The translations under genes were made by a program, and so were the position numbers. The notes beneath the pieces were generated by a model. The model was not told where the DNA came from. It made no database searches and was given only the letters and a program-made list of their open reading frames with translations. This document shows positions 12,648 through 30,775 of a stretch of 32,000 bases of DNA, piece by piece (within the stretch, counting starts at the first letter, position 1; the number at the start of each line of letters is the position of its first letter). Source of the stretch: Frigoribacterium faeni (GTDB lineage: Bacteria; Actinomycetota; Actinomycetes; Actinomycetales; Microbacteriaceae); assembly GCF_007988805.1 (NCBI RefSeq), contig NZ_BJUV01000033.1:1-32000 (forward strand), written 5' to 3'.

Positions 12648-12746
12648 CCGCTGGGTCCTCTCTCGAGCTATTACGCATGAGTGCGTAAGAGTTAGCGCGC
12701 GAACGCTCTCCCCGCGAGGCTCATGGCCCCCGTCTCGGCCCCCGGG

Positions 12747-14854: not shown

Positions 14855-14861
14855 GAGGACG

Positions 14862-14893: not shown

Positions 14894-14900
14894 TCCCATC

Positions 14901-14933
14901 GCTCGTGCCGCTCGTGCCGCTCGTGCCGCTCGT
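14901..14933. repeat. 9-bp tandem repeat (GCTCGTGCC) beside palindrome E
   Basis: Three full copies and one partial copy of GCTCGTGCC directly abut palindrome copy E. It lies in the gap between the ArsR promoter and the 3' end of the next minus-strand gene. Confidence 0.8.
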
Positions 14934-14995
14934 GGATCGAGTGGTCGGAAGATGCTCGTCATCGCGCGACGAAGAGCATCTTCTGACCACTCGAG
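14934..14995. repeat. Palindromic repeat, copy E
   Basis: The left arm is GGATCGAG followed by TGGTCGGAAGATGCTC; the right arm is GAGCATCTTCTGACCACTCG. The 15-16-nt spacer contains GTC/GAC and can fold further. It is downstream of the 15055-16521 gene and upstream of the ArsR promoter on the same strand. It is followed by GC-only sequence rich in CCCGGGC and GGGGCGG (about 15000-15050). Confidence 0.85.
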
Positions 14996-15054
14996 CGGGC
15001 CGGCGCGCGCCCGGGCGCGCCCGGGCTCGCGCGGGCGGGGCGGGCGGGGCGGAC

Positions 15055-16521: not shown

Positions 16522-16644
16522 GGCCCCACCGTAGTCATCGGAGCCGCTGCCGCGGGTCGTGTGCGCGGGGCGGCGCGGTAGCGTGGCGTTCACGAGGCGG
16601 GGGCCGGATTGGGCGGGACGAGCGGGCGGGGAGTCGAGCAGCCG

Positions 16645-17112
16645 GTGGGCACGTATCTGCGGCGTGGAGCCGGGCTGGGTCTGCTGCTCGGCTTCGTCAC
16701 CGCCGGCGGAGGATTCCTGATCGGCCTCGCCCTGACCGCCGACGGCGAGCCGATCGGGTCGGGGTCGATGCTGTCGCCGAGCTTCCTCGTCACCGTGGCC
16801 GCCGTCGTCGGGCTGCCCGTCGGGTCGGTCGTGGGTCTCCTCTCCGCCTGCGGTTGCCTGCTGGCGCGCGAGCCCCTTGAGGCGGTGTCGTCATCGATGC
16901 GGACGGCCGTGATGGCGATCGTCGGCGCCGTCGTCGCCGGAGCATGCACCTGGGCGGCCGCGCGATCGCTGGCGGAGCTGAGCGGGCCGGTCGCCCCGTA
17001 CGTGGTGATCGCAACGCTGGTGGGCGGGCTCGTGTCCGCCCGCACCGAGCACCTCTGGACGCGGCGTCAGCACGACGGCGGCCGTCGAGCCTCCGCCGAC
17101 GGGGATCGGTGA
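16645..17112 (+). CDS. Small membrane protein, four predicted spans
   Basis: A hypothetical protein of 155 residues with about four hydrophobic segments (GAGLGLLLGFVTAGGGFLIG; FLVTVAAVVGLPVGSVVGLL; AVMAIVGAVVAGACTWAAA; APYVVIATLVGGLVSA) and a charged Arg/His C-terminus. The GTG at 16645 follows GGGGAG by about 11 nt. A TTG at 16609 preceded by GAGGCGGGGG would add 12 residues and cannot be excluded. It is divergent from the YezG-like gene. Function unknown. Confidence 0.55.
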   Translation: MGTYLRRGAGLGLLLGFVTAGGGFLIGLALTADGEPIGSGSMLSPSFLVTVAAVVGLPVGSVVGLLSACGCLLAREPLEAVSSSMRTAVMAIVGAVVAGACTWAAARSLAELSGPVAPYVVIATLVGGLVSARTEHLWTRRQHDGGRRASADGDR

Positions 17113-17153
17113 GGGAGGCGCGGCTCACCGCCCGGACCGCACCCCGCCGCCGC

Positions 17154-17918
17154 TCACCTCCGGGAGGCGCGGTCGCGGAACCGGCGTTCGCGTTCCGCGC
17201 GCCACTCCTCGTCGGTGCCCTGTCGCGCGAGGCGTGCGGCGCGGAGCGCGGCACGCTTCTCCTCGCGCCGCTCGAACGCGGCCTGCTCGAGAGGGGTCCG
17301 AGCGCGGTGCCGCTTGATGTAGCGGACGGGCTTCGGCGGCTTCGGCGGTTTCGGATGCCTCCTGCGGTACCACAGGTGCAGCAGGGGCCCGACGATGCCG
17401 ACGACGGTGAGCGCCTGCATGCCGACGATGGCGCGGATGCGGTCGTCGAGCTCCTCCGTGATCCCGGGGATGTCCGGGATGGCCTCCTCCGGCCGATCCG
17501 TGTCGTAGAGCACGTCGATGCGCTGGCCCACCGCCCAGTCGTCCTCGGAGCGGGTGTGGTAGCGCGGGTTGTCGGTGACCCGGGTCCGCCCGTCGATGGT
17601 GGTCTCGAACACGGGGTACCAGTAGGGGCGCGAGACGTGGATCCTGGTGCCCGACCCGGTGAACCCCTTCTCGACGCGGACGACCGTCGCGGTGGTCTCG
17701 CCTCCGCTCGCGTGGATGGCGTGGTCGTAGCGCGCCGGCGGGATCGCGTCGCTCAACCCGATGAAGCCGACCGCCAGGAGGCTCGCGCTCCAGAGGGGCC
17801 AGAAGAACGGGCCGAAACCCGACTTCGACGACGACTTCGACTTCGACGACGACGGCGTGCGGCCGGCCGTCGGTCGTGTGATGTCCTGCTGCCCGACCGC
17901 CTTCTCCTGCTCGGTCAT
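17154..17918 (-). CDS. DUF3592-like membrane protein with basic tail
   Basis: A 254-residue protein with two membrane spans (FFWPLWSASLLAVGFIGL, about 40-57, and MQALTVVGIVGPLLHLWY). The extracytoplasmic loop between them has GETTATVVRVE, WYPVFETTIDGRTR and GQRIDVLYDTDRPEEA. This is the pattern of DUF3592, a widespread actinobacterial family of unknown function. The N-terminus is a Ser/Lys-rich cytoplasmic segment and the last 70 residues are strongly Arg/Lys-rich. The ATG at 17918 has AAGGGGCGG upstream. It lies 47 nt after the MFS gene on the same strand, possibly in one transcript. Convergent with 16645-17112. Confidence 0.65.
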   Translation of the reverse strand: MTEQEKAVGQQDITRPTAGRTPSSSKSKSSSKSGFGPFFWPLWSASLLAVGFIGLSDAIPPARYDHAIHASGGETTATVVRVEKGFTGSGTRIHVSRPYWYPVFETTIDGRTRVTDNPRYHTRSEDDWAVGQRIDVLYDTDRPEEAIPDIPGITEELDDRIRAIVGMQALTVVGIVGPLLHLWYRRRHPKPPKPPKPVRYIKRHRARTPLEQAAFERREEKRAALRAARLARQGTDEEWRAERERRFRDRASRR

Positions 17919-17965
17919 CGATCCGCCCCTTCGTCGTGGCCCGTCCCCTCGGCCACGTTCCGAAC

Positions 17966-19282
17966 CTACCGGGCCGGCGGTCCGCCCGTGTGCGACGAGA
18001 CGCGGCGCACGCTCGCGGTGGACAGCGCCGCGGCCGTCGCCACGACGATGATCGCCGCGCAGGTCAGGAGCGTCGTCCCGGTGCCGAAGGCGTGCGCCGC
18101 CGGTCCGACGAGGACCTCGCCGAGAGGGATCGCGACGAAGGAGCCCACCATGTCGTACGAGTAGACGCGGGCGAGCGCCTCGCGCGGGATTCGGCTCTGC
18201 AGCGACTGGTCCCACGAGATCGCGAAGATCTCCAACGCGACGCCGCCGAGCGCGAAGGCGGCGATCAGGGCGGGCAGCACGGGAGCCAGCCCGAGCGTGA
18301 CGACCGGCACCGCCGTCAGGGCCATCAGCCCGACGCCGATCGCGAGCCCTCGTCGGGGTCGCCAGCGCAGGGCGATCACCGCGCCGATCGCCAGGCCCAC
18401 GGTCTGAGCCGCGACGACGAGACCCCAGCCCGCGCGCCCGAACGACTCGTCGGCGACGACGGGGCCGAGCACCGTCGTCGCCCCCACGAAGGCCGCGTTC
18501 AGCACCGCGAACTGAGCCACCACGATCCACACCCAGGAGCGGCGGGTGAACTCCTGCCATCCCTCACGCAGGTCGGCCACGACGGACGTCCCGCCCGCAC
18601 GAGCCGCACCCGAGTCGGCCCCTGACCCTGATCCTGCCCCTGACTCCGTGCCCGACGCCCTCGGCAGTCGCAGCCGGGCGAACAGCGCACCGGCCAACGC
18701 GAATCCCGCCGCGTCGACGGCCAGACCCCAGCCGGGTCCGACGAGCGCGACGATCCCCGCGCCCGCCGAGGCGCCGACGACGCTCCCGCCGTTCACGCTC
18801 AGGCGCAGCAGCGCGTTCGCCGGTCGCAGCAGGTCGACGGGCACCGTCTCGGGCACGAGGGCCGCCGCCGCCGGGAGGCTGACGGCCGCCACCGCGCCGT
18901 TCAGGACGCTCATCACCACGAGCGACGGGATCGTCGCCGTCCCCGAGATCACCAGCGCCGCGACCACGCCCTGGGTGGCCGCCGCGGCCGCCGACGTCCC
19001 GACCAGCACGACGTCGCGAGGCAGCCGGTCGGCGATCACGCCGCCGAACAGCAGCACCGCCACGTTGGCGACGGAGCGCGCCGCCACCACCAGCCCCAGG
19101 TCGGCCGCCGAGCCCGTCAGGTCGAGCACCGCGAACGCGAGCGCGATCGGAGCGACCGCGTTGCCGAGGATGCTCGTCGTCCGTGCCGCGAGCAGCCAGC
19201 GGAACGGACGGTGTGCGAGGGGGCCGCGACGGTCATGCGATCTCCGCGGAACTGAGGAGGCGCCTCCTCGGTCATCGGTCAC
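17966..19282 (-). CDS. MFS transporter, downstream of ArsR regulator (pair 2)
   Basis: A 438-residue MFS_3-type exporter with about twelve spans. Motif A is GGVIADRLPRD; RFRWLL-like and TTSILGNAVAPIALAFAVLD segments form the first span. The central loop (about 195-230) is Gly/Ser/Ala-rich and low in complexity. GTG at 19282 overlaps the upstream ArsR stop in GTGA, the same arrangement as pair 1. The two exporters are similar in type, but I could not measure their identity. Substrate unknown. Confidence 0.85.
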   Translation of the reverse strand: MTDDRGGASSVPRRSHDRRGPLAHRPFRWLLAARTTSILGNAVAPIALAFAVLDLTGSAADLGLVVAARSVANVAVLLFGGVIADRLPRDVVLVGTSAAAAATQGVVAALVISGTATIPSLVVMSVLNGAVAAVSLPAAAALVPETVPVDLLRPANALLRLSVNGGSVVGASAGAGIVALVGPGWGLAVDAAGFALAGALFARLRLPRASGTESGAGSGSGADSGAARAGGTSVVADLREGWQEFTRRSWVWIVVAQFAVLNAAFVGATTVLGPVVADESFGRAGWGLVVAAQTVGLAIGAVIALRWRPRRGLAIGVGLMALTAVPVVTLGLAPVLPALIAAFALGGVALEIFAISWDQSLQSRIPREALARVYSYDMVGSFVAIPLGEVLVGPAAHAFGTGTTLLTCAAIIVVATAAALSTASVRRVSSHTGGPPAR

Positions 19283-19800
19283 GGTCGCCTCATCGGGAAC
19301 AGGGCCGCCGTCATCGAGACGGGGCTGGTGCCCGGCGTCCGGGGGGCCCGGGCGGCGGCGTGCAGGAGGGCCGAGGCCTGGCCCACGTGGTGCACCACCC
19401 GGCGCCACGTCTCGGGGTCGACCCAGAGCTCGGCGTCGGTCGAGACCTGGTGCCCCGCGATCCGCCGATGCGACCGTCGGCGCAGCTCGTCGATCAGGGC
19501 CTCGACGTACTGGGCGCGCTCCTCGTCGGCCGTCGCCGCGTCGCTCGGCTCGAGCGGGAAGGGCCGGGACGACGACAGATGCCGATAGCGCTTGGCCTCG
19601 CCGCCGCGGATCCGCACGACCTCGACGACGGTCACCAGCCCGACCCGCTCGAGGACCCGCAGGTGGTAGCTCGCCGTCGCCTGCGAGAGGCCGAGCTCGC
19701 GGCCGGCCTCCGCGGCGCTCATCGCGGCACCCGTCAGCAGCGAGAGCAGGCGGAGGCGGATCGGATGAGCCGTGGCGCGGAGTTCGTCGAGTGCGGACAT
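19279..19800 (-). CDS. ArsR-type winged-helix regulator (pair 2)
   Basis: A 173-residue regulator. The HTH reads ELRATAHPIRLRLLSLL, AEAGRELGLSQATASYHLRV, then LERVGLVTVVE and the wing GGEAKRYRHL. The C-terminal half is helical with DEERAQYVEALIDELRRR, a form often found with MFS_3 exporters. No metal-binding Cys pair. The ATG at 19800 starts the domain. An in-frame TTG at 19836 is rejected because it coincides with the predicted -35 box TTGACG (19831-19836). With a CACGAT -10 (19807-19812) ending 6 nt before the ATG, the message would be leaderless. Confidence 0.85.
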   Translation of the reverse strand: MSALDELRATAHPIRLRLLSLLTGAAMSAAEAGRELGLSQATASYHLRVLERVGLVTVVEVVRIRGGEAKRYRHLSSSRPFPLEPSDAATADEERAQYVEALIDELRRRSHRRIAGHQVSTDAELWVDPETWRRVVHHVGQASALLHAAARAPRTPGTSPVSMTAALFPMRRP

Positions 19801-19806
19801 GCCGTC

Positions 19807-19836
19807 ATCGTGGTCGTGCGGCCCCACGACCGTCAA
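19807..19836 (-). promoter_or_regulatory. ArsR pair 2 promoter
   Basis: On the minus strand, TTGACG (19836-19831), an 18-bp spacer and CACGAT (19812-19807) precede the ATG by 6 nt. A weak inverted motif CAAA-N6-TTTG overlaps the -35 region and may be the ArsR operator. Confidence 0.5.
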
Positions 19837-19945
19837 ATGGATCTTTGGGGGTCGGGGCCCGACGATCAGCGTCGCGAGACGAGACGCGGCGCTGCCGCGA
19901 GGAGCGCGACGGTGACCCGCGGGACCCGGCGGCGCGACGCGACCG

Positions 19946-20572
19946 TCAGACGACGTCGGTGCTCGACCGCCAGGCCTCGATGAACCGGTGGGCCCGGCCC
20001 GTGACCAGGGCGGTCCGGCCGTGCAGCAGCAGGGCGATCGCGAACACGAGCAGGCTGAGCGGGACCACCAGGGAGGCGCGGGTCACCGCGAGGAGGATCG
20101 GGAGGTCCGCGAGGGGCACGAAGGCGAGGGCGGCGAACACGACCCGGGCGGCGACCACGACCATCAGCGCTCGCGCGGTCCAGACCTCGAGGAGGTGTCG
20201 CCGGACGACGAGGACGGCGCCGGTGACGCCCCCCGCCAGCGCGAGCACCTGCAGCACGGCGACGACGAGCCCCACGGATCGGAGCGCGGCGGCGTCGCCG
20301 TCGCGGGACAGCGACAGCAGCGATCGCGAGACCACGTCGGACAGGGCGAAGAGGATCAGCCCCGTCGAGGCGACGGTCGAGGCCCGGGCCAGGCCCGGCT
20401 CGCCTCGAGAGCCGACGATCAGCACCGCGATGCCCGCGAGGAAGGCGACGGACGCCGCCGTCGCGGCGATCGGATGCGGATCCGCCTGCGACCACAGTCC
20501 CAGGGCTGCCGATGCGAGGACGAGCATCCCCGCCAGCACCGTCGTCCGGTTCGAGTCGGTCATCTGCGACAC
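19946..20572 (-). CDS. Six-span membrane protein of unknown function
   Basis: A 208-residue hydrophobic protein with six predicted spans, including VLAGMLVLASAALGLWS, TAASVAFLAGIAVLIVG, GLVVAVLQVLALAGGVTG, LMVVVAARVVFAALAF and SLVVPLSLLVFAIALLLHG. I do not recognise a family. The GTG at 20572 is chosen for a GGGGGG ribosome site 7 nt upstream. An ATG three codons downstream (20563) or a GTG at 20611 are alternatives. It ends 146 nt before the ArsR gene of pair 2 on the same strand. Confidence 0.6.
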   Translation of the reverse strand: MSQMTDSNRTTVLAGMLVLASAALGLWSQADPHPIAATAASVAFLAGIAVLIVGSRGEPGLARASTVASTGLILFALSDVVSRSLLSLSRDGDAAALRSVGLVVAVLQVLALAGGVTGAVLVVRRHLLEVWTARALMVVVAARVVFAALAFVPLADLPILLAVTRASLVVPLSLLVFAIALLLHGRTALVTGRAHRFIEAWRSSTDVV

Positions 20573-20679
20573 GTGAACGCCCCCCTCGGCCGAATCCGTC
20601 GTGTCCGTCACGCTAGACCCCGCCGGGCACCGTGCCAAGAGCGCGGGCCGCTCGTCCGGCCCTCGGCACGTCCTCCCGG

Positions 20680-21144
20680 TCAGGAGGCGGCGGGCGCCGC
20701 GACGCTGAGGATCCAGGTCACGCCGAACCGGTCGGTCAGCATGCCGAACCCGGCGCTCCAGGCCGACGCGGCCAGCGGCTCGACGATCGATGCCCCGTCC
20801 GAGAGCGCCTCCCAGCAGACCGCGACCTCGTCGAGGGTCTCGCCGTCGACGGCGACGAAGAACGGCTGGTCGGTGATCGTCATGCCGTTCTCGCGGCGGG
20901 TCGACCCGGCTTCGCCGACCGCGCCGCCCGACTGTCCGGGGACGTCGTACGCCAGGAGTCGGAAGCCGTCGACCGTCGCGACCCGACCGAAGACGACCTT
21001 GTCGGCGTCGGGTGCGTCCGCGGGCATCCCGACGTCGCCGTAGGTCGTGATCGCGGTCGTGCCGCCGAAGGCCGACTGGTAGAAGTCCAGCGCGGCACGG
21101 GCGTCGCCGGGGAAGTTCAGGTGGGTGGTCGTCGTGAGGGTCAT
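20680..21144 (-). CDS. PhnB-like VOC family protein
   Basis: A 154-residue vicinal-oxygen-chelate fold protein of the PhnB/3-demethylubiquinone methyltransferase-like group. It has THLNFPGDARAALDFYQSAF at the N-terminus, LLAYDV, the loop around PFFVAV and the C-terminal AFGMLTDRFGVTW-type motif. Proteins of this group often have unknown substrates, some in antibiotic or aldehyde resistance. The ATG has AGGAG 5 nt upstream. It is divergent from the WYL regulator, which probably controls it. Confidence 0.85.
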   Translation of the reverse strand: MTLTTTTHLNFPGDARAALDFYQSAFGGTTAITTYGDVGMPADAPDADKVVFGRVATVDGFRLLAYDVPGQSGGAVGEAGSTRRENGMTITDQPFFVAVDGETLDEVAVCWEALSDGASIVEPLAASAWSAGFGMLTDRFGVTWILSVAAPAAS

Positions 21145-21205
21145 GTCTGCTCCTGAGAAGGTCGTCGTCGGGTCTCTCCCGGACGATCACGACGCTACGA
21201 GCCGA

Positions 21206-21240
21206 CTAGGTCAGTTCCTGTCCTAGATCGGAACTACTCT
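21206..21240. promoter_or_regulatory. Interlocked inverted repeats between VOC gene and WYL regulator
   Basis: CTAGG (21206-21210)/CCTAG (21222-21226) and AGTTCC (21213-21218)/GGAACT (21230-21235) are two overlapping inverted repeats. TACTCT (21235-21240) is a -10-like box ending 6 nt before the regulator ATG, so binding would block the regulator's own promoter. The first repeat is also close to the divergent VOC gene's promoter region. Confidence 0.55.
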
Positions 21241-21246
21241 CGACGG

Positions 21247-22257
21247 ATGACGACCACGGCCACCTCTCGACTGCTGAGCCTGCTCTCGCTGCTGCAGACC
21301 CGTCGCGACTGGCCGGGACCGCTGCTCGCCGAGAGGTTGGCGGTCAGCCATCGCACCGTGCGCCGAGACGTCGACCGTCTTCGGGAGATGGGCTACAGCA
21401 TCCAGGCCACGATGGGCGTCGACGGCGGCTACCGCCTCGACGCGGGCAGCGAGCTGCCGCCTCTCCTCTTCGATGACGATCAGGTCGTCGCGCTCGCCGT
21501 CGCCCTGCAGGCGGCCGCCGTCACCGGTGTCGGCATCGAGGAGGCCGCACTGCGCGCCCTCACCACCGTGCGGCAGGTGATGCCGTCGCGCCTCCGGCAC
21601 CGGCTGAACGCCCTCGAGTTCACCACGATCCCCGGTCGACCAGGAGGCGCGGTGCCGGACGCGCTCTCACCCGACGTCCTCATCGCCCTGTCGTCCGCCG
21701 TGCGCGGCCAGGAGGTGCTCCGCTTCGACTACGCCGAGCCCGACCGGGACCCGGCTGCGGAACCGCGCCCGCCGCGCCGGGTCGAGCCGCACCACCTGGT
21801 CACCTCGCACGGCCGCTGGTACCTCGTGGCCTGGGACCTGGGGCGCGACGACTGGCGCATCTTCCGCGCCGACCGGATCACGCCCCGGACGCCGACGGGG
21901 CTCCGGTTCGCTCCGCGCACCGTGCCGGGCGGGGACGCCGCGGGCTTCGTCTCCGCTCGCTTCACGGGCTCGTCGGACGCCGACCAGTGGCCCTGCATCG
22001 GCAGGGCCATCCTCCATCTCCCCGCCGGCGCCGTGCGTCCCTTCGCCGGCGACGGCGTCGTCGGCGACCTCGGCCCCGACCGATGCAGCATCGAACTCGG
22101 CTCCTGGTCGTGGCTCGCCCTCGCCGCCGCTCTGAACCTCTTCGACACCGAGGTCGAGGTCGTCCAGCCGCCCGAGCTCCGGCAGGCGTTCGCGCGCCTC
22201 GCCGCTCGCAACGCCGCGACCGCGACTCACGCCGTCCCTTCGGCCGACGCTCCGTGA
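21247..22257 (+). CDS. YafY-type HTH-WYL transcriptional regulator
   Basis: A 336-residue regulator. The N-terminal HTH_11 domain (about 5-62) reads LLSLLQTRRDWPG then ERLAVSHRTVRRDVDRLREM. The middle WYL domain contains HHLVTSHGRWYLVAWDLGRD and DWRIFRADRI. A C-terminal WCX-like region ends in VVQPPELRQAF. WYL proteins sense ligands or nucleotides and regulate neighbouring genes. The divergent VOC gene, 102 bp away, is the obvious target. ATG chosen at the start of the HTH, 6 nt after a TACTCT box. Confidence 0.9.
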   Translation: MTTTATSRLLSLLSLLQTRRDWPGPLLAERLAVSHRTVRRDVDRLREMGYSIQATMGVDGGYRLDAGSELPPLLFDDDQVVALAVALQAAAVTGVGIEEAALRALTTVRQVMPSRLRHRLNALEFTTIPGRPGGAVPDALSPDVLIALSSAVRGQEVLRFDYAEPDRDPAAEPRPPRRVEPHHLVTSHGRWYLVAWDLGRDDWRIFRADRITPRTPTGLRFAPRTVPGGDAAGFVSARFTGSSDADQWPCIGRAILHLPAGAVRPFAGDGVVGDLGPDRCSIELGSWSWLALAAALNLFDTEVEVVQPPELRQAFARLAARNAATATHAVPSADAP

Positions 22258-22308
22258 CCACGGGGAGGCGGAGCGCCGCCGACGCAGGCCTGCTCCGGCG
22301 CCAGGGTG

Positions 22309-22794
22309 TCAGGGTGTCAGCGCGAGGCTCACGTCGTCGTCGTCGAACTGCAGCGTGACGCCCACCGTCTCCGCCGGGTCGCGCGGCTCGGGCAGATCCA
22401 GCGCGTAGCTGGTGGGGCCGTAGTCCGCCGTGCAGACCTCTCCGCCGATCATGGTCATCTCGACCACGAGGTCGCCGCCGTCCTCAGCGATGCCGGTGGG
22501 AGCCGCCGGGCAGCTCGACGATCCGTAGGTGGTCACGAAGAAGCTCTCGCCGGGCTCGACCCATCCGACCGCGGGGCTCGTGTCGCCGGGCCCGTCGACG
22601 CTCAGCTCTCCCGCGCCGGCCCCGGTGTACACGTCGCCGATCACCACGGGCTCCTCCGCACCGGTGCACCCGGTCAGGAGCACACCGCAGACGACGACCA
22701 CTCCGGCCGCCGCGGCGATCCGCGACGTCGCCGAGCGCCGCGACGAGCGACGACGGCCAGGCCCCGCGCGCTCCGCCTCCGTCCCTCTGCCCAT
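22309..22794 (-). CDS. Small secreted lipoprotein, unknown function
   Basis: A 161-residue protein with an Arg-rich start (GRRRSSRRSATSR), a hydrophobic stretch (IAAAAGVVVVCGVLLTG) and lipobox LTGC (Cys near 43). The mature part contains Cys residues at SSSCPAAPTG and GGEVCTADYG that could form a disulfide. It ends in an acidic beta-type segment (TLQFDDDDVSLAL). No family recognised. A TTGAGG (22829-22824)/CAGACT (22806-22801) promoter with a 17-bp spacer ends 6 nt before the ATG. Confidence 0.65.
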   Translation of the reverse strand: MGRGTEAERAGPGRRRSSRRSATSRIAAAAGVVVVCGVLLTGCTGAEEPVVIGDVYTGAGAGELSVDGPGDTSPAVGWVEPGESFFVTTYGSSSCPAAPTGIAEDGGDLVVEMTMIGGEVCTADYGPTSYALDLPEPRDPAETVGVTLQFDDDDVSLALTP

Positions 22795-22906
22795 GATCGA
22801 AGTCTGGCCTATCAGCCCGACCGCCTCAAGAGATCGCGACGACCGGACCCGGTCGCACGACCCGAGGATGACGCGCGGCCCCTCGGCGGACTGATGCACT
22901 GACGAG

Positions 22907-23518
22907 ATGCGTTCCACAGCCGCCCGAGCCCGATCTCGCGCCCGCATCGTCGTCCTCGTCGTCGGCTCGCTCATGGCCATCGTCACGGCCGGCGGGCCCG
23001 TCTTCCTGGCCGTCGATGTCCTCGAGAGGTCGACCGGCTATCGTCCCGACGGCATCGGCCTGATCGTGCCCGGCCTCGTGGTCACCGCCCTGACCGTGTT
23101 CCTGGTCGGCATCGCGTTCCTCTGCGTGTTCGTCCGCAGCGACGGTCGCACGCCGCGCGGCCGAGCCCGAGGCGGTTCCGGGATCGCGATCCTGCCGGTG
23201 CTGCTGACCGGCTGGACGGCGGTGATCGGCGTCCGGTACCTGTCGTCGCAGGTGAGCATCGGGGCGCTGTCCGTCTGGCTCGACACCGCGCTCGCGGCCG
23301 CCGTCCTGTTCGCGGGCGCCTGCGGGGCGTTCGTGGTCGCGGCGGTCGTGCGCCGCGCCTCCTCCCGGCTCGTCGCTCTCGGTCTCGCCGTCGCAGCCCT
23401 CGTCGCGGCGGCGGTCGCTCAGCCGTATCTCGTGTCGGGGGTCGTGCTCAGCGTCTCACTGGCGATCTGCGCGGGGCTGCTCAGCCTCGACCGCGAGCAG
23501 CCCGAGCCCGCTCCTTGA
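22907..23518 (+). CDS. Multi-span membrane protein, unknown function
   Basis: A 203-residue protein with about six hydrophobic segments, beginning with a basic stretch (RSTAARARSRAR) and then IVVLVVGSLMAIVTAGGPVF. Later spans are around GLIVPGLVVTALTVFLVG, ILPVLLTGWTAVIG, ALAAAVLFAGACGAFVV and VALGLAVAALVAAA. No family recognised. Divergent from the lipoprotein gene. Its last 38 nt overlap the 3' end of the GrpB-family gene on the other strand. Confidence 0.6.
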   Translation: MRSTAARARSRARIVVLVVGSLMAIVTAGGPVFLAVDVLERSTGYRPDGIGLIVPGLVVTALTVFLVGIAFLCVFVRSDGRTPRGRARGGSGIAILPVLLTGWTAVIGVRYLSSQVSIGALSVWLDTALAAAVLFAGACGAFVVAAVVRRASSRLVALGLAVAALVAAAVAQPYLVSGVVLSVSLAICAGLLSLDREQPEPAP

Positions 23519-24056
23519 TCGCCAGGATCACCTGGGTCTTCGCGTCGGCGTAGTCGTTCATGTCGTCCCACCGCCGGGACAGCAGCTCTCGCTTCGTGTT
23601 CTCGTAGAGGGCGCGGTCGTCGGCGTCCGAGCGCAGGTGATCCCGCAGGAGGCGGTACTCGTCGACCGCAGGATGCCCACGTTCGTAGATGTGCACGTGC
23701 GCGTCGCGCGCCGGGGTCCGCACGAGGCGATGCCCCGGCTCGCGCACGCGCAGCAGGTAGCCGGCGGCGAGGAGGGGTTCCAGGTAGTCCTCCTCGGCGG
23801 TGATGTCGTCGACCGCCACCACGATGTCGACGATCGGCTTGGCGGCCAGCCCGGGGACGGACGTGGAGCCGATGTGCTCGATCTCGACCTCGACGCCCGA
23901 CGCGACCAGCGCCTCCTCGATCCGCCGGCGGTGCTCGCGGAAGATCTCGGGCCAGCGTCCGTCGTAGTCGTGGAGTCGGACCTCGACCTTCTCGGCGCCC
24001 CCGACCAGGTCGAGCGACGTGACGTCGGGGCGGCGGGGGGTGCGGTCTGTGCTCAC
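23481..24056 (-). CDS. GrpB family (UPF0157) protein
   Basis: A 191-residue member of the GrpB/UPF0157 family, which has a nucleotidyltransferase-like fold and no firm biochemical role. Signatures are VRLHDYDGRWPEIFREHR, IEHIGSTSVPGLAAKPIVDI and HVHIYERG followed by YRLLRDHLRSD. The GTG at 24056 is chosen because CAGGAT (24068-24063) ends 6 nt upstream, suggesting a leaderless message. The frame is open further upstream without homology. Convergent overlap with the preceding membrane gene. Confidence 0.85.
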   Translation of the reverse strand: MSTDRTPRRPDVTSLDLVGGAEKVEVRLHDYDGRWPEIFREHRRRIEEALVASGVEVEIEHIGSTSVPGLAAKPIVDIVVAVDDITAEEDYLEPLLAAGYLLRVREPGHRLVRTPARDAHVHIYERGHPAVDEYRLLRDHLRSDADDRALYENTKRELLSRRWDDMNDYADAKTQVILAIKERARAARGRG

Positions 24057-24109
24057 TCGGCCATCCTGCCAGGAGCCTCGGACACCGCAGGGACGAGGGG
24101 GTGTTAGTC

Positions 24110-24146
24110 GGGCCGGAGGCGTGACCGAGGTCACGCGTTCCGGCCC
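24110..24146 (-). terminator. Strong hairpin between VOC and GrpB genes
   Basis: GGGCCGG (24110-24116) pairs with CCGGCCC (24140-24146), and inside it GCGTGACC (24119-24126) pairs with GGTCACGC (24129-24136), with small mismatches between the two stems. It lies about 150 nt after the stop of the VOC gene and upstream of GrpB on the minus strand. It could be the VOC terminator or an operator. The rest of the 235-bp gap, including an AT-richer patch near 24170-24205, shows nothing I can name. Confidence 0.45.
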
Positions 24147-24291
24147 GATGACCGCATCGGACCCGAATCCGATGTGGTTCTCCGATTGCATTGCTTACCC
24201 GTCATGAGTTCGGTGCGGCCCGGGGCGAGGATTGTGCCCAGTTGGGGGCACCCCCGGTCGAGGGTCGCGCGGCGTCGCGCTCCGGCCGATT

Positions 24292-24648
24292 TCAGGCGCG
24301 GTCGTGCAGCGTGATCAGGTAGCCGTCCGGGTCGACGAAGGTGAACGTGCGGCCGAAGGGTCCGTCGATCGGGGACGACGAGATCTCGACGCCCGCCTCG
24401 ACCATGGCGTCGTGGATCGCCTGCGCCTCGGGCGCGTGCATCCAGACGCCCACCCCGACGCCCAGGGGGCCCGCCTCGAGGTCGACGCCGGGCAGGGGGC
24501 CGCGGACGGCGAAGGCGGCGGGCGCCGTGTCGAACACGACGGCGTGCGGCGGGCCCGCCTGGCGCGTCAGGCCGAGGTGCTCCTCGTAGAAGGCGGCCGA
24601 TCGGTCGATGTCGCGGACCTGCAGGGAGATGAAGCTGGGGCCGGTCAT
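24292..24648 (-). CDS. Glyoxalase/VOC family protein
   Basis: A 118-residue single VOC domain protein. It reads FISLQVRDIDRSAAFYEEHL at the start and GRTFTFVDPDGYLITLHD at the end, the usual last strand with the DPDG turn and a possible metal-binding end. Function of such stand-alone VOC proteins ranges from glyoxalase to resistance. The ATG follows AGGAGG. It is divergent from a MarR regulator with two identical operators between them, so it is very probably the MarR target. Confidence 0.85.
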   Translation of the reverse strand: MTGPSFISLQVRDIDRSAAFYEEHLGLTRQAGPPHAVVFDTAPAAFAVRGPLPGVDLEAGPLGVGVGVWMHAPEAQAIHDAMVEAGVEISSSPIDGPFGRTFTFVDPDGYLITLHDRA

Positions 24649-24694
24649 GAGGTTCCTCCTGTGTCGAGCGACTCCCGTCGAGTCGCTACCTGTA

Positions 24695-24738
24695 TGTCAG
24701 TCAACTGACACGTACGAGGCTATGTCAGACTACTGACA
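24695..24738. promoter_or_regulatory. Two identical MarR operators
   Basis: TGTCAG-N4-CTGACA occurs twice, at 24695-24710 and 24723-24738, with 28 bp between centres. The second copy runs into the A of the MarR start codon and overlaps a CAGACT -10-like box (24726-24731). The first lies on the side of the divergent VOC gene. One regulator binding both sites could silence both genes and be released by its ligand. Confidence 0.75.
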
Positions 24739-25178
24739 TGAGTCAAGAGGGACCCTCGATCGACCTGGCGACGTCCGTCGGCTACCTGCTGAAGGAGACG
24801 TCGAGCGCGCTCCGCGCCGCGATGGAGGCCGAGCTGCGCCCCCTCGGGATGACGATCACGCACTACTCGTGCCTCGAGCTGCTGGCCCAGCGGCCCGGTC
24901 TGTCCAACTCCGAGCTGGCCCGCGGCGCGTTCGTCACGCGGCAGTCCATGAACGTCCTGCTGCAGTCCCTCGAGAGCGAGGGGCTCGTGCGGCGGGCGGA
25001 GCGCGCATCGACCGGGCGGGCCCTCCCGACCGAGCTGACCGACGCCGGTCGCCGTCAGCTCGCGCAGGCCAGCGCGGCCGTGCGCTCGGTGGAGGATCGG
25101 ATGACCGCAGGGCTCACCGCTGCCGACCGCGCGCGTTTCGCCGAGATGCTGCGCGGCTGCGCGGTCGCCCTCCGCTGA
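24738..25178 (+). CDS. MarR family transcriptional regulator
   Basis: A 146-residue winged-helix regulator, full length for the family. LGMTITHYSCLELLAQRPGL leads into the HTH SNSELARGAFVTRQSMNVLL, then LESEGLVRRAERA and the wing TGRALPTELTDAG. The C-terminal helix (LTAADRARFAEMLRG) completes the dimer interface. Its start codon lies within the second operator, so it is probably autorepressed and leaderless. The divergent VOC gene is the likely co-target. Confidence 0.9.
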   Translation: MSQEGPSIDLATSVGYLLKETSSALRAAMEAELRPLGMTITHYSCLELLAQRPGLSNSELARGAFVTRQSMNVLLQSLESEGLVRRAERASTGRALPTELTDAGRRQLAQASAAVRSVEDRMTAGLTAADRARFAEMLRGCAVALR

Positions 25179-25194
25179 GGGCGACGGCGTCCGC

Positions 25195-25668
25195 TCACGA
25201 CAGGGTGCGGCCGAAGCAGAGCGAGTCGTCGCTGCCGATGTAGGAGCCGAACAGGGGGATGGCCTCGTAGCCCTCGCGTTCGTAGAACCGGATCGCGTCG
25301 GGCTGCAGGACACCCGTCTCGAGGATCACCTGCCGAGCTCCGAGATCGCCGGCGGCCGCCTCGAGCGCACGCAGCACCGCGGTCGCCACGCCCGTCCCCC
25401 GCGCCTCGGGCGCGACGTACATCCGCTTGATCTCGACCGAACCCGGCCCGGCGACGGCGTCGGCCAGGGGGCGCAGGCCGCCGCAGGCGATCGCCCGGCC
25501 GTCCGCGGTGCGGGCGACGAGGAACACCGGGACGTCCGCCGCCGACGGGGGAGTGCCCGGCTCGTGGTCGTCGCTGCCGTAGCGCGCGTCGAGCTCGCGC
25601 CGCTGCTCGCGTCGCAGGGCGTCGGCGTCGGGGTGGTCGAACGGGGTGGAGGCGATCTGCCAGGTCAT
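25195..25668 (-). CDS. GNAT family N-acetyltransferase
   Basis: A 157-residue GCN5-related acetyltransferase, using acetyl-CoA. Motif A is visible as VEIKRMYVAPEARGTGVATA, with the pyrophosphate-binding RGTGVA, followed by VILETGVLQPDAIRFYEREG (motif B). Substrate unknown. The ATG at 25668 has AAAGG 7 nt upstream. It is divergent from the TetR-PhzF gene with 75 bp between starts, so the TetR domain may control it. Confidence 0.88.
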   Translation of the reverse strand: MTWQIASTPFDHPDADALRREQRRELDARYGSDDHEPGTPPSAADVPVFLVARTADGRAIACGGLRPLADAVAGPGSVEIKRMYVAPEARGTGVATAVLRALEAAAGDLGARQVILETGVLQPDAIRFYEREGYEAIPLFGSYIGSDDSLCFGRTLS

Positions 25669-25714
25669 GGTCGACCTTTCGGTGAGGAGGCGGTCCGGAG
25701 ATCCGGTGACGAAC

Positions 25715-25737
25715 GTTACGGTAACAGGCGTTACGCT
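25715..25737 (+). promoter_or_regulatory. TetR operator and -10 box
   Basis: GTTAC (25715-25719), GTAAC (25721-25725) and GTTAC (25730-25734) are three copies of one half-site, the first two forming a perfect palindrome around a single G. TACGCT (25732-25737) is a -10-like box ending 6 nt before the fusion gene's ATG. Binding would repress the fusion gene and possibly the divergent GNAT gene. Confidence 0.65.
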
Positions 25738-25743
25738 CGAACC

Positions 25744-27282
25744 ATGCCCCGTACCCGAGACACGAGCGAGACCCGACGCCGCCTGTCCGAGGCCGTCTTC
25801 ACGACCCTGGCCGAGCTCGGCCCGACCGGGCTCACCCTGCGCGCGGTGGCCGAGCGCGCCGGCTGCACCACGGGTCTCGTCCTCCACACCTTCCGCGACA
25901 AGCAGGCGCTGCTGCTGCACGCCCGGGATGTCCTGCACGAGCGCACGCGCATCCGCTCCGACGCGCTCGAGGCGGCCGCGTCCGGTCCGGTCGAGGCGCT
26001 CAGCGCCGTCCTCGGGGGAGCCCTGCCGACCGACCCAGAGAAGCTCGCCGAGGCGCGGGTCTGGGTCGGGTTCCTCGCGGCGGCCCTCGGCGACCCCGTG
26101 CTGGCCGAACGCCATGCCGTCAACAGCCGCGCGTTCGCCACCCGACTCGAGCGGCTGCTGATCGCGGCCCACCCGATCGGGCCGATCGACGCGAGCGACC
26201 GGTCGGCAGCGCTCGCGGCCGCCGTGGAGGGGATCGCCGGCCTCGCCGCCGGCGACCAAGAACGGTGGACGCCCGCCCGGCAACGCGCCGCCCTCGACCT
26301 CGTGATCGACTCCACCGGCCCCGCTGCCTCGGCTCCCGTCACCGCGATCCCTCTGGCCCCGCCCCCTCCGGCCGAGCCGCCCGTCGAGGTGCTGCGTCTC
26401 ACGGCCTTCGCGGCCGGACCCGGCGGCGGCAACCCGGCCGGGGTCGTGCTCGACGCCTCGGGTCTGACCGACGAGCGGATGCAGCGCATCGCGGCCGAGG
26501 TGGGCTACGCCGAGACGGCCTTCGTCGTCGACCCGGGCATCGACGACGGTGCCCGGCACGTCGCCGTCCGCTACTTCTCACCCGGTGCCGAGGTCCCGTT
26601 CTGCGGGCACGCGACCATCGCGACGGCGGTCGCGCTCGCCGAGCGTCGCGGAGTCGGCGCCTTCACCCTCGACACGGCGGTCGGCCCCGTCGTGATCGAG
26701 ACCGCACGATCGTCGGGAGGCGCGGGCGACGCCGGTCACGCGCCTCCCGGTGACGAGTCGGTGACGGCCGCGTTCACGAGCGTGGAGCCCGCGGTGCGCG
26801 ACCTCGACGCTCTCGTGGCGGACCGCCTCCTGGGTCTCCTCGGTCTCGAGCGCGCCGACCTCGACGAGCGCTGGCCGCTGCGCGAGGCGTTCGCCGGCAA
26901 CTGGCACCCCGTCGTGGCCGTCCGCGAGCAGGCCGTCTTCGACGCGTTCCGCTTCGATCCGAGGGAGGTGCGGGTGCTGATGGACGAACGGGGCTGGGCC
27001 GGCACGGTCACCGTCGTCCATCGGCAGGGCGTCGACGAGTCCGGCGGCCTTCTCGTCGAGACCCGCAACCTGTTCCCGGTCGGCGACATCACGGAGGACC
27101 CGGCCACGGGGTCGGCGGCCGCGTCGCTCGGCGGGTACCTGCGGGCCCTCGGCGAGGTCGCGCCTCCCGCCCGGATCGTCGTGAGGCAGGGGCAGCACGT
27201 CGGGCGACCGAGCCTGCTCGTGGTCGACGTCCCGCCCGTCGGCGGCATCACGGTGACGGGCACGGCGCGGCCGATCGACTGA
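25744..27282 (+). CDS. TetR regulator fused to PhzF-type isomerase
   Basis: A single 512-residue reading frame. Residues 1-200 form a TetR-family repressor: SEAVFTTLAELGPTGLTLRA, VAERAGCTTGLVLHTFRDK as HTH, then a helical ligand domain. A Pro-rich linker (PLAPPPPAEPP, about 202-212) leads to a full PhzF domain (214-512): AAGPGGGNPAGVVL, YAETAFV (family catalytic Glu is Glu257), YFSPGAEVPFCGHATIATA and DITEDPATGSAAASLGGYL. PhzF isomerises dihydro-hydroxyanthranilate in phenazine synthesis; most homologues have unknown substrates. The sequence has no stop or frameshift between the parts and the linker has normal local codon use. A regulator joined to a metabolic enzyme could link catalysis or ligand binding to repression. 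A sequencing frameshift that removed a stop remains possible. Divergent GNAT gene; GTTAC operator upstream. Confidence 0.85.
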   Translation: MPRTRDTSETRRRLSEAVFTTLAELGPTGLTLRAVAERAGCTTGLVLHTFRDKQALLLHARDVLHERTRIRSDALEAAASGPVEALSAVLGGALPTDPEKLAEARVWVGFLAAALGDPVLAERHAVNSRAFATRLERLLIAAHPIGPIDASDRSAALAAAVEGIAGLAAGDQERWTPARQRAALDLVIDSTGPAASAPVTAIPLAPPPPAEPPVEVLRLTAFAAGPGGGNPAGVVLDASGLTDERMQRIAAEVGYAETAFVVDPGIDDGARHVAVRYFSPGAEVPFCGHATIATAVALAERRGVGAFTLDTAVGPVVIETARSSGGAGDAGHAPPGDESVTAAFTSVEPAVRDLDALVADRLLGLLGLERADLDERWPLREAFAGNWHPVVAVREQAVFDAFRFDPREVRVLMDERGWAGTVTVVHRQGVDESGGLLVETRNLFPVGDITEDPATGSAAASLGGYLRALGEVAPPARIVVRQGQHVGRPSLLVVDVPPVGGITVTGTARPID

Positions 27283-27300
27283 GCGCGGCCGACGGTCCAC

Positions 27301-27367
27301 GGCACCAGAGGATGGGCATGGCACCACGGGAAATCGTGGCGCCGTGCCCATCCTCTGGCGCGGTGCC
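27301..27367. repeat. Large imperfect palindrome between fusion gene and kinase
   Basis: CCAGAGGATGGGCA (27305-27318) pairs perfectly with TGCCCATCCTCTGG (27345-27358). Inside it CCACG (27324-27328) pairs with CGTGG (27335-27339), and GGCACC (27301-27306) can alternatively pair with GGTGCC (27362-27367). It lies 18 nt after the fusion gene stop. It may terminate that transcript. Its size and perfect arms also resemble a repeat element unrelated to copies A-E. The rest of the 223-bp gap holds a TAGCAT box near 27434 that may start the kinase transcript. Confidence 0.7.
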
Positions 27368-27505
27368 CGCCTTCGCCGGTGCGTGTCGTGCGGCGGCGAC
27401 GGCGTCGTGCGGCGTCGGGCACGGCGGGCGGCGATAGCATCGCGGGGGTGCCCGGCGGGTGCGACGTGATGGGCGTCGACCGCCGCGCCGCGACCAGGAG
27501 GAACC

Positions 27506-28459
27506 ATGGCCCCGCACACCGTCCACGTCGTCGGCAGCGTCAACGACGACCTGCGCCTCACCGTCGTCACGCACGCCGCCCCGGGCGAGACCATCACGGC
27601 GACGAGCGCTCTGCGTGAGCTCGGAGGCAAGGGCGCGAACCAGGCCGTGGCCGCGAGCCGCGCCGGGGCCACCGTGCGATTCGTCGGGGCCGTCGGCACC
27701 GATCCGGCCGGCGACGAGCTCGTCGCCGCCCTCGCCGCCGAGGGCATCGACACCTCGGGCGTCGCCCGCGTCGACCACGAGCTCACCGGACGCGCCATCG
27801 TGTCGGTCGACTCGTCCGGCGAGAACCTCATCACCGTCGTCCCCGGCGCCAACGGGGCGATCGACGTCGACGCGGTCCGCGCGTCGCTGCAGACCGTCGA
27901 GCGCGGCGACATCGTCGTGCTGCAGCTCGAGGTGCCGTTCGCCGTCAACGCCGCCGCCGCCCGAGCCGGGCGCGACCGCGGCGCTCTCGTCGTGCTCAAC
28001 TCGGCGCCGTCCGACCCGCGCGTCCTCTCGCTCGTCGACGACCTCGACCTGCTCGTCGTCAACGCGAGCGAGCTGGCCGACCTGCTCGCAGCCGAGGGCG
28101 CGGGCGACGACGTGCCCGATGCCACGGACGCCGGCACCGACGCCCCCGCCGACGTCCGCGCCGCGGCCGCCGCGCTCGCCGACCGTCTCGGCGTCCGCCT
28201 CCTGTGCACGTTCGGCGCCGACGGCTCGACGCTGGTCGGCGAGGGCACCCCGATCGAGCAGGAGGCGCACCGCGTCGAGGCCGTCGACACGACCGCCGCC
28301 GGCGACACGTTCATCGGCTACGTGGCCGCCTCGCTCGCCGACGACGAGACCTGGGCCGACGCCCTCGCGATCGCGACGCGGGCCTCGGCCGTCGCCGTCG
28401 GGCGCGAGGGCGCCGCCCGCTCGGTCCCCACCCGCGCCGAGGTCGACGCGCTCGTCTGA
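27506..28459 (+). CDS. Ribokinase-like PfkB family sugar kinase
   Basis: A 317-residue ATP-dependent carbohydrate kinase of the PfkB family, closest in motifs to ribokinase (ribose to ribose 5-phosphate). The N-terminal motif GGKGANQAVAASRAGA (about 41-56) binds sugar; the C-terminal DTTAAGDTFIGY (about 261-272) carries the catalytic Asp and anion hole, in the ribokinase form. An Asp/Ala-rich stretch (about 200-215) is a loop expansion. AGGAGG lies just before the ATG. It is followed 68 nt later by a flavoenzyme gene. Ribose, another pentose or a nucleoside are possible substrates. Confidence 0.88.
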   Translation: MAPHTVHVVGSVNDDLRLTVVTHAAPGETITATSALRELGGKGANQAVAASRAGATVRFVGAVGTDPAGDELVAALAAEGIDTSGVARVDHELTGRAIVSVDSSGENLITVVPGANGAIDVDAVRASLQTVERGDIVVLQLEVPFAVNAAAARAGRDRGALVVLNSAPSDPRVLSLVDDLDLLVVNASELADLLAAEGAGDDVPDATDAGTDAPADVRAAAAALADRLGVRLLCTFGADGSTLVGEGTPIEQEAHRVEAVDTTAAGDTFIGYVAASLADDETWADALAIATRASAVAVGREGAARSVPTRAEVDALV

Positions 28460-28527: not shown

Positions 28528-29649
28528 ATGGCACGCAAGGTCGATCTCGTCGTCGTCGGGGGAGGCGCGATGGGCCTCGCCACCGCCTGGCAGGCCGCCG
28601 TGCGCGGTCACGACGTCGTGCTGCTCGAGCGCTTCGAGCGAGGCCACCTGCAGGGCGCCTCCCACGGCTCCACCCGGAACTTCAACATCGCCTACGACGA
28701 CGGCGAGTACGTCGATCTCGTCGCCCGCGCCCGCAGCCTGTGGGACGAGCTCGCCGCGGTCTCCGACGCTCCGCTGCTCGACCTGGTCGGCGTCGTCAAC
28801 CACGGGAGGTCGGACATGCTCGGCCGCATGCGCGAGCTGCACGCCGAGCGCGGCATCGAGAGCGAGCTCCTCCCGCCGGCCGACGCGGGCGCGCGCTGGA
28901 CGGGCCTGCGCTTCGAGACCGAGGTGCTCTGGGTGCCCGACAGCGGCCGGATCCGCGCCGCCGACACGCTCGCCACGTTCGAGCGGATCGCGACCGGGCT
29001 GGGCGCCGAGGTGAGCTGGTCGACCCCGGTCGAGCGCATCGAGGTCGAGGGCGACGACAGCGCCCGCGTCGTCACCGCCGACGAGGAGTACGTCGCGCCC
29101 CGGGTCGTCGTGACGGCGGGTGCGTGGACGGAAGGCCTCGTCGGGGGCCTCGCGCGCCTCCCTCGCCTCGTGGTGACGCAGGAGCAGCCGGCGCACTTCC
29201 GGGTGACCGACGCCGACGCGGTGTGGCCCGGCTTCAACCACCGACCCGACCCGGACGCGGCGGCGGAGGCCTGGTGGTACGGGCCGGTCTACGGGATGCT
29301 GACCCCGGGCGAGGGCGTCAAGGCGGGCTGGCACGGCACGGGCCCCGTCACCGATCCCGACGCTCGCACCTTCGAGCCCGAGGCGCGGCAGTTCGAGGCG
29401 CTGCGCCGGTACGCGCGCGAGTGGCTGCCCGGCGTCGACGCCGAGACGGCCGACCCGATCAGCTGCACCTACACGTCGACCGACACCGAGGACTTCGTCC
29501 TCGACCGCGTCGGCCCGCTCGTGGTCGGGGCCGGCTTCTCGGGTCACGGCTTCAAGTTCACGCCCCTGATCGGCGAGATCCTCGTCGACCTGGTCGAGGA
29601 CGGCGAGGCCCCGGCGCGGTTCCGGCAGCTCGGACGCCCCGCCGCCTGA
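28528..29649 (+). CDS. Sarcosine oxidase/N-methyltryptophan oxidase-like flavoprotein
   Basis: A 373-residue DAO-family flavoprotein. The FAD-binding Rossmann motif VDLVVVGGGAMGLATAW is at 5-21. Monomeric sarcosine oxidase features are present: Cys313 in SCTYTSTDTEDFVLD matches the Cys that carries covalent FAD (Cys315 of MSOX), with GFSGHGFKFTPLIGE behind it, including Lys. However, where MSOX has TRIIRHAY, this reads TRNFNIAY, so the residue equivalent to the substrate-binding Arg52 is Asn53. Substrate may differ from sarcosine or N-methyl amino acids. The ATG at 28528 follows CAGGAGGCGC. It probably shares a transcript with the kinase. Confidence 0.85.
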   Translation: MARKVDLVVVGGGAMGLATAWQAAVRGHDVVLLERFERGHLQGASHGSTRNFNIAYDDGEYVDLVARARSLWDELAAVSDAPLLDLVGVVNHGRSDMLGRMRELHAERGIESELLPPADAGARWTGLRFETEVLWVPDSGRIRAADTLATFERIATGLGAEVSWSTPVERIEVEGDDSARVVTADEEYVAPRVVVTAGAWTEGLVGGLARLPRLVVTQEQPAHFRVTDADAVWPGFNHRPDPDAAAEAWWYGPVYGMLTPGEGVKAGWHGTGPVTDPDARTFEPEARQFEALRRYAREWLPGVDAETADPISCTYTSTDTEDFVLDRVGPLVVGAGFSGHGFKFTPLIGEILVDLVEDGEAPARFRQLGRPAA

Positions 29650-29752
29650 GGGCCGGCCGTGCCGGACGCGCCGGTCGTCCTCGACGCCGCGCCCGCGCCT
29701 CCTCGGCCCGCGCCTCCTCGGCCCTCGATCGACGCTCCCGGCAGCGGCTCGG

Positions 29753-30703
29753 TCAGCGCTGGAGAGTCTCACCCGGATACTCGCCGTAGCGTGCGTGGTA
29801 GGCCGCGGCGAACCGGCCGGGGTGGCCGAAGCCCCAGCCGCGCGCGATCTCGGCCACGGTCGTCTGCCGGGGATCCGAGATCGTCAGCTCGATCCGGACG
29901 CGGTCGAGGCGGATCGAGCGCAGGTAGGCCGACGGGGTCTGCCCGAGCGAGCGCTGCAGCGCGGCCTGGAGGCCTCGTGCGCTGAGGTCGACGGCCGCCG
30001 CGACGTCGCTGACGGTGAGCGGCAGGTGGGCGTGGGCGTGCATGTAGTCGACGGCGTCGCGGACCCGGCTCGACCCGACGGCGGTCTCGGTCGCCGACGG
30101 GGCGTCGGATTCGTGGGCGAACGTGTCGAGCACGGCCATCGCGATCCGACGGTCGGCCTCGCGTCGCAGCAGCGGCGGCGTGCCCGGAGCGACCACGTGC
30201 GGGACGGCCTCGCGCAGCACGCCGGCCCACCCCACCCGCGCGGCGGGGGAGGGCACGGCCATGTGGTCGAAGCGCAGTCGTCCGCCCGCAGCCCCCTCGT
30301 GCTCGGCGGAGACGCGCTCGAGGTAGTCGGCGTCGAGGTGCACGAGGCTCTGCCGGTAGTCGACGAACTCGAAGTCGTAGGCCTCCGTCGGCGACATCCG
30401 CGGCACCCCGGCGGTGTACTCGGCCAGCTCGCCGGCGTGCTCGACGGTCGCGTGCCCCTCGTGCAGCCACGACACGATGTACTCGCGGCTGGCGTCGGAC
30501 GAGCCGCGGGCCCGGCCGCGGAACTCCGAGGTGCGGACGCTCACGTCGGGGCCGCCGCGCGCGGTGTAGCGGTAGCGGAAGGGCGTCCCGTCGACGTCCA
30601 TCAGGGCGCGGTCGCCGGGGTAGTGCGTCCCGTAGAGGTCGCGGGCGTCGTCGAGGTCCGTCCCGGAGGTCTCCGAGCCCATCACCGCGTCGTCGTCACC
30701 CAT
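29753..30703 (-). CDS. AraC family transcriptional regulator
   Basis: A 316-residue regulator with an N-terminal cupin-like AraC_binding_2 region (about 30-180) and a C-terminal HTH_18 domain. The first helix-turn-helix is LTVSDVAAAVDLSARGLQAA, followed by FQR-like LQRSLGQTPSAYLRSIRLDR and the second motif VAEIARGWGFGHPGRFAAAY, ending in YGEYPGE. It faces the kinase/oxidase genes convergently, with 103 bp between stops. A CATCAT -10-like box ends 8 nt before the ATG. Target unknown. Confidence 0.88.
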   Translation of the reverse strand: MGDDDAVMGSETSGTDLDDARDLYGTHYPGDRALMDVDGTPFRYRYTARGGPDVSVRTSEFRGRARGSSDASREYIVSWLHEGHATVEHAGELAEYTAGVPRMSPTEAYDFEFVDYRQSLVHLDADYLERVSAEHEGAAGGRLRFDHMAVPSPAARVGWAGVLREAVPHVVAPGTPPLLRREADRRIAMAVLDTFAHESDAPSATETAVGSSRVRDAVDYMHAHAHLPLTVSDVAAAVDLSARGLQAALQRSLGQTPSAYLRSIRLDRVRIELTISDPRQTTVAEIARGWGFGHPGRFAAAYHARYGEYPGETLQR

Positions 30704-30775
30704 CAGCGTTCATGATGCCACTGCGCGGGGGCTCGGTGGGGCGGGTCGACGGCTCAGGAGGCGCTGGCCGGCGGC

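Follow-up and report, generated by a model that had tools for sequence, protein, structure and literature searches.

An in-frame joining of a TetR repressor and a complete PhzF-family isomerase in Frigoribacterium faeni

The window analysed here, a 32,000-nucleotide stretch of the Frigoribacterium faeni genome, contains a gene in which a TetR repressor runs on into a PhzF-family isomerase. Such a gene raises the questions of whether the two halves are made as one protein, how they came to be joined and whether the enzyme could act on the compound that the repressor senses. Single-chain repressor-enzymes are already known, since PutA and BirA are described as enzymes that also act as repressors (PMC6978683), and in these proteins, as here, repressor and enzyme share one chain. 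In the present protein, by contrast, the repressor half has its own ligand domain, and control of DNA binding by the enzyme half would be hypothetical. The pairing of TetR with PhzF was not found elsewhere in the searches described below.

Translation of the plus strand gave one open frame of 512 residues with no internal stop, and a protein search of the own genome returned a single match to the fused protein, the window itself. The parts of the gene are as follows.

25744-27282, plus strand: fused gene TetR(BetI-type)-PhzF, stop codon included (open frame, Pfam matches, sole match in its own genome)
25744-26313, plus strand: TetR repressor part, residues 1-190 (helix-turn-helix 22-59; ligand/dimer part 82-190)
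26314-26382, plus strand: linker, residues 191-213, with 9 Pro and 6 Ala in 23 residues
26338-26340, plus strand: GTC codon (V199), the likely position of the PhzF start codon in relatives (N-terminal sides compared by eye)
26383-27279, plus strand: PhzF isomerase domain, residues 214-512 (Pfam, NCBIfam, structure model)

In the repressor half, the Pfam family TetR_N (PF00440) matched residues 22-59 of the fusion with 33.4 bits, against a curated cut-off of 24, and the BetI-type family TetR_C_6 (PF13977) matched residues 82-190 with 59.2 bits (curated cut-off 27). The C domain is BetI-like, but assignment of this half as BetI, the choline-binding repressor, was rejected because TIGR03384 scored 58.6 bits, below its cut-off of 201.3. 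The enzyme half matched PhzC-PhzF (PF02567) at residues 220-507 with 176.6 bits (cut-off 27), covering positions 2-274 of the 281 in the profile, and the NCBIfam model TIGR00654 with 156.5 bits (cut-off 76.2). The structure models, for which each half was folded separately from its own alignment (A4 and A5) so that the relative placement of the halves lies outside them, were confident: the TetR half formed nine helices with a mean pLDDT of 93.7 and the PhzF half had a mean pLDDT of 94.2. Two mixed alignments, in which the fusion stood together with unfused TetR and PhzF sequences, were kept out of the folding; in one (A3) MAFFT had put TetR rows across the PhzF part, and in the other (A2) three TetR rows were just 25-26% identical to the fusion. 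The best PDB matches of the TetR model were TetR regulators, with 2np5 at the top, and those of the PhzF model were PhzF-family proteins (3edn, E. coli YddE and Pseudomonas fluorescens PhzF; PF02567). These share the fold and the four aligned active-site residues with the fused enzyme, whose identity to the first-listed solved members is about 18-28%; unlike it, they have no attached repressor. The active-site side chains of PhzF are given as E45, H74, D208 and S213 (PMC5524880), and alignment to Pseudomonas PhzF (1t6k) placed E257, H289, D452 and S457 of the fusion at these positions. The initial annotation, which had described an in-frame fusion of two complete domains with a full-length PhzF that keeps the catalytic Glu, was therefore upheld by the open frame, the Pfam scores above cut-off, the confident models, the nearly complete profile match and the alignment of E257 with E45. 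The fusion of a TetR repressor with a complete PhzF enzyme looks real.

As judged from the alignments, neither half shows any sign of decay. Of the PhzF positions with at least 95% identity among the other 35 rows of a 36-row alignment, 70 of 70 are kept in the window, and the TetR half, which is 48-74% identical to the same repressor in the 19 rows aligned with it, keeps 41 of 41 such positions in its 20-row alignment; the other rows deviate at 0-12 (PhzF) and 0-7 (TetR) near-invariant positions. Among the pairs listed, dN/dS was 0.16-0.38 for TetR pairs that included the window versus 0.17-0.39 for unfused pairs, and the corresponding values for PhzF were 0.17-0.38 and 0.17-0.36. Most of this low dN/dS and conservation signal may predate the fusion.

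The Pro-rich linker reported between the halves was only partly sustained. A Pro/Ala-rich segment of 23 residues is present, but it is largely the native N-terminal tail of the Frigoribacterium PhzF, to which it corresponds from residue 199 onward when relatives are compared by eye. All 11 of the 11 Frigoribacterium PhzF loci have GTG-ACC or ATG-ACC at the likely start of PhzF, which is predicted and unannotated, and a Pro/Ala-rich tail often lies between this start and the sequence VEVLRLTAF or a similar one. The MLRL starts in some PhzF rows were set by the script and are no evidence of a start there. On the 5' side of the GTC codon the DNA of the window differs, again by eye, from that of the Frigoribacterium PhzF loci. 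The open in-frame junction is by itself weak evidence, because by our estimate only about 10-20 codons lie outside both homologies, in DNA of about 75% GC. Since the TetR stop and the likely PhzF start have both been lost, PhzF is probably translated solely as the C-terminal part of the 512-residue protein.

Separate genes in related strains, with a stop near the junction, had been named at the outset as the finding that would speak against a fusion. The repressor does end after 193-222 residues in 22 of the 28 full-length loci of the same TetR (a 29th, L039, is a fragment and was left out of the count). In relatives, however, TetR and PhzF lie at distant loci and are not neighbours split by a stop, which argues that the fusion is derived and local and not a misread stop. 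At least one half was matched at E<=1e-30 in 14 of the 15 other Frigoribacterium genomes, and none of the 15 has both halves as one gene. Five of them (G003, G007, G011, G013 and G015) have both genes, in every case at different loci; G004 contains PhzF plus a TetR fragment. From identical DNA at the PhzF loci, G003 is Frigoribacterium sp. CFBP 13712, G010 is VKM Ac-2836, G011 is PhB116 and G013 is Leaf8. In the last of these the two genes lie on one strand, PhzF then TetR, about 133 kb apart. A simple deletion between neighbouring genes was ruled out as the origin for G013, where the strand is the same but the order is wrong, so that the fusion is not explained in this way.

Wider searches gave the same picture. 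No TetR-PhzF protein was present among the matches listed from 397 other genomes of the family, 395 of the order and 393 of the class (overlapping samples with one genome per species and at most three candidates scored per genome), nor in the best 80 of 505 relatives among the named genomes, and 0 of 219 matching plasmid records covered 80% of the fusion query. Likewise, no report of a TetR-PhzF or MarR-PhzF fusion was found among the matches listed in the literature, which was searched by title and the start of the abstract. Within these genome and plasmid matches and at this level of the literature, the initial statement that no TetR-PhzF fusion has been described holds. Matches extending beyond PhzF into the query's TetR part were obtained in G271 (residues 120-508), G376 (150-511), G639 (147-509) and G449 (187-511); none of these loci contained a match to the TetR half, and the upstream frames in the latter three gave no Pfam match. 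At least 60 open codons lie upstream of PhzF in 41 of 101 distinct PhzF loci (G271 is outside the 101). No N-terminal partner of PhzF was recognized by Pfam in these 41 upstream frames of at most 300 residues each, the overhangs of L047, L048, L109 and L154 being among the frames scanned.

The region upstream of the fused gene contains two further features.

25195-25668, minus strand: divergent GNAT acetyltransferase, neighbour of the TetR gene (Pfam Acetyltransf_1)
25715-25735, plus strand: operator-like site GTTACGGTAACAGGCGTTACG, an inverted repeat GTTAC-G-GTAAC plus a third GTTAC half-site

Of the 28 loci of the same TetR, 15 have, like the window from which the consensus was taken, 17 of the 17 bases specified in the operator consensus GTTACNGTAACANNNGTTACG; the other 13 loci have 16 of these bases (two loci), 15 (six), 14 (four) or 13 (one). 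The loci of G013 and G015 are near-identical. In 28 of 28 full-length loci the TetR gene has a GNAT neighbour encoded on the other strand at a distance of 49-148 bases. The fused gene thus shares its repressor domains (PF00440 and PF13977), operator-like site and GNAT neighbour with the lone TetR/BetI-type repressors of the Microbacteriaceae. On the strength of this conservation across the TetR loci, the operator-like site and the divergent GNAT gene are ancestral features of the repressor. A GTTAC operator does lie just upstream, as first annotated, but it belongs to the ancestral TetR/GNAT pair and not to the fusion as such. The natural reading is that the repressor would control both itself and the GNAT gene.

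This repressor has also acquired an enzyme elsewhere. It stands alone in the 22 loci mentioned above and is joined to PhzF in the window, whereas in 6 of the 28 loci (L038, L175, L176, L178, L182 and L184) it is fused C-terminally to a GNAT domain. All six are from the genus that includes Herbiconiux oxytropis (G380, equal to L069 by identical DNA); they are 6 of the 6 loci of this group that were read, further matches in G321, G380 and G426 lying outside the count. TetR_N, TetR_C_6 and Acetyltransf_1 all scored above cut-off in these proteins, and the fused GNAT differs from the divergent GNAT, which is present too. As in the window, the enzyme is attached at the same end via a low-complexity linker rich in small residues; it is, however, an acetyltransferase and hence of another family, and the arrangement is found in six genomes of the genus. 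The L184 protein exceeds that of L038 by 114 residues, mostly in the linker.

A different parallel is offered by G271, a member of the Microbacteriaceae from a genus other than Frigoribacterium, in which PhzF lies in frame behind MarR (L185; G271:C17:65000-68500, 1765-3129). The frame comprises 454 codons from a GTG and matched MarR_2 with 45.6 bits (cut-off 27) and PhzF with 199.9 bits. Here too a repressor-type helix-turn-helix precedes a complete PhzF in frame, but the regulator is of another family and the MarR/PhzF border carries AGGAG followed by an ATG, so that separate translation is possible there and the parallel may be two proteins, not one. The G271 gene may represent a fusion, two overlapping products, or both. 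Among the 129 loci inspected for MarR or TetR beside PhzF, the only other close case besides L185 was L135 (Arthrobacter sp. ov407), where a MarR-like match precedes the PhzF match by 161 bases on the same strand.

The setting of the fused gene was defined by comparison with two other Frigoribacterium genomes, G002 and G003.

24250-27410, no strand: block (glyoxalase, MarR, GNAT, TetR-PhzF) absent at the same site in G002 and G003 (collinear flanks)
27298-27365, no strand: palindromic repeat just 3' of the fused gene, with 31-nt arms that are 87% complementary and a fold z-score of -5.6

The left flank matched one contiguous locus from 6.8 kb (G002) or 7.9 kb (G003), which are the ends of the compared stretches, to 12.2 kb. 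The match resumed at 24.1-24.25 kb in the same order and orientation, and matching on the right flank began at 27.4 or 27.5 kb and reached 29.6 kb in both genomes; the G002 match extended as far as 31.9 kb, interrupted at 29.6-30.8 kb. The larger flank matches were 82-90% identical and a 150-base piece at 24.1 kb was 73% identical. By this comparison, 24.25-27.41 kb of the window is an insertion, 3.2 kb in size, relative to G002 and G003. Its parts, glyoxalase-MarR, GNAT-TetR and PhzF, match separate loci of other Frigoribacterium with 68-81% DNA identity. The block is a mosaic, and on the simplest account it would have been taken up from an unsampled relative. A search of the own genome with the 201 bases that surround the junction found no second copy, and the best other match spanned 32 columns at an E value of 0.001. 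No match to the GNAT-TetR pair was listed in the stretch of the own contig C13 that matches the G003 TetR locus, and the G003 PhzF locus matches the own genome in pieces on several contigs (C69, C14, C26 and others). At E<=0.001 the palindromic repeat of about 68 bases has 13 further occurrences in the own genome, and matches inside it were found in 6 of the 15 other Frigoribacterium genomes, with none in G002 or G003. It may end transcription or may have mediated rearrangement. In appearance the repeat is REP-like.

Other observations concern the remainder of the window. A stretch of 150 bases (24096-24249) stays beside the ribokinase gene in G002 and G003 despite the genes inserted around it. 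The preceding 12 kb or so (12250-24095) has no counterpart in the G002/G003 locus apart from a few short matches and is a second, larger insertion beside the block that carries the fusion. The gene of an AraC-type regulator (29753-30703) lies inside the gap in the G002 match (29636 to 30772) and appears to be absent there. The divergent glyoxalase-MarR pair (24292-25178) is a unit found at another locus in other Frigoribacterium, with about 80% identity in three loci aligned, and also on Streptomyces plasmids, with about 70-72%. There was no Rfam match in the window and no phz gene among the ten neighbouring genes of the fusion that were scanned. PHZA_PHZB gave no match in the own genome, and control genomes gave no match either.

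Could the junction be an artifact of assembly, with sequence from a TetR locus and sequence from a PhzF locus put together in error on one contig? The genome is available as a draft in 83 contigs, with this one listed at 32,000 bases, and the combination was found nowhere else among the matches listed. Both flanks, however, align with a single contiguous locus in each of G002 and G003, without change of order or orientation, and such collinearity would be lost if the join at 26.3 kb were wrong. Together with the single genome match to the protein and the junction without a second copy, this makes a chimera very improbable. Also very unlikely is that one frame yields two proteins, with PhzF translated separately from an internal start such as the GTG at residue 216 (26389). 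The in-frame GTG codons 187, 216 and 235 lack a Shine-Dalgarno-like site, and a promoter scan of 25100-27600 was empty, although the sigma-70 consensus on which it relied is a poor fit to this GC content; on the other side, codon 216 comes just ahead of the first strand predicted in the PhzF model, and the G271 frame has its ATG with AGGAG upstream at the corresponding border.

A recent accident has a better claim. A rearrangement would have joined the genes, leaving a TetR that works as before and PhzF as a tolerated passenger with no regulatory meaning. In-frame joining is possible by chance, since by our estimate about one frame in three would serve, the junction is short and stops are few at this GC. 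The occurrence of TetR-PhzF in one genome among the matches listed counts against a functional fusion; the best indication of function would be a fusion that is itself conserved, and this is lacking. The block moreover resembles an insertion whose modules are spread over three separate loci in relatives, and it ends in the palindromic repeat with its 13 other genomic places. The accident is nevertheless considered unlikely, though with a real chance of being correct, since every near-invariant residue is kept in both halves and such joinings recur, as TetR-GNAT in all of the Herbiconiux loci read and as PhzF behind MarR in G271.

On balance, it appears probable, with considerable room for doubt, that a PhzF gene was captured into an autoregulated repressor gene in a lineage-specific event and now yields a tethered enzyme, probably active, that is co-regulated with the repressor. 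The starting point would have been an ancestral TetR/BetI-type gene, divergent from a GNAT gene, with the conserved GTTAC operator between them, to whose 3' end a PhzF gene was joined in frame with loss of the TetR stop and of the likely PhzF start. The TetR half would repress the GNAT gene and its own promoter and would be released by its ancestral ligand. The PhzF half would be an active isomerase on a flexible tether, the level of which would follow the repressor's own feedback loop. Capture of this kind would put the enzyme under an existing switch, and a new sensor would not be required.

A one-protein metabolic switch, in which the PhzF half makes or removes the compound that the TetR half senses, would be a special case of a working, co-regulated fusion. 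It is improbable. The simpler guess is that the TetR half would still bind the ancestral ligand, since it keeps the ancestral operator, the divergent GNAT gene and the strongly conserved residues. The MarR-PhzF frame of G271 indicates that a repressor beside PhzF is not unique, which lends a little weight to the idea that a PhzF substrate or product might be sensed.

TetR proteins are a very large class of regulators. To our knowledge, the ligands of most of them are unknown, and for PhzF-family proteins that act outside phenazine synthesis the same holds, for the most part, of the substrates. A fused enzyme gives an immediate clue to the ligand or pathway of its TetR partner, and the TetR-GNAT and MarR-PhzF parallels allow a comparative test, in which a ligand or substrate common to two of TetR-PhzF, TetR-GNAT and MarR-PhzF would point to the pathway. 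If the one-protein switch were true, the repressor would set the level of its own ligand beside the operator and, taken with TetR-GNAT and MarR-PhzF, these bacteria would repeatedly build single-chain repressor-enzymes from PhzF and this TetR.
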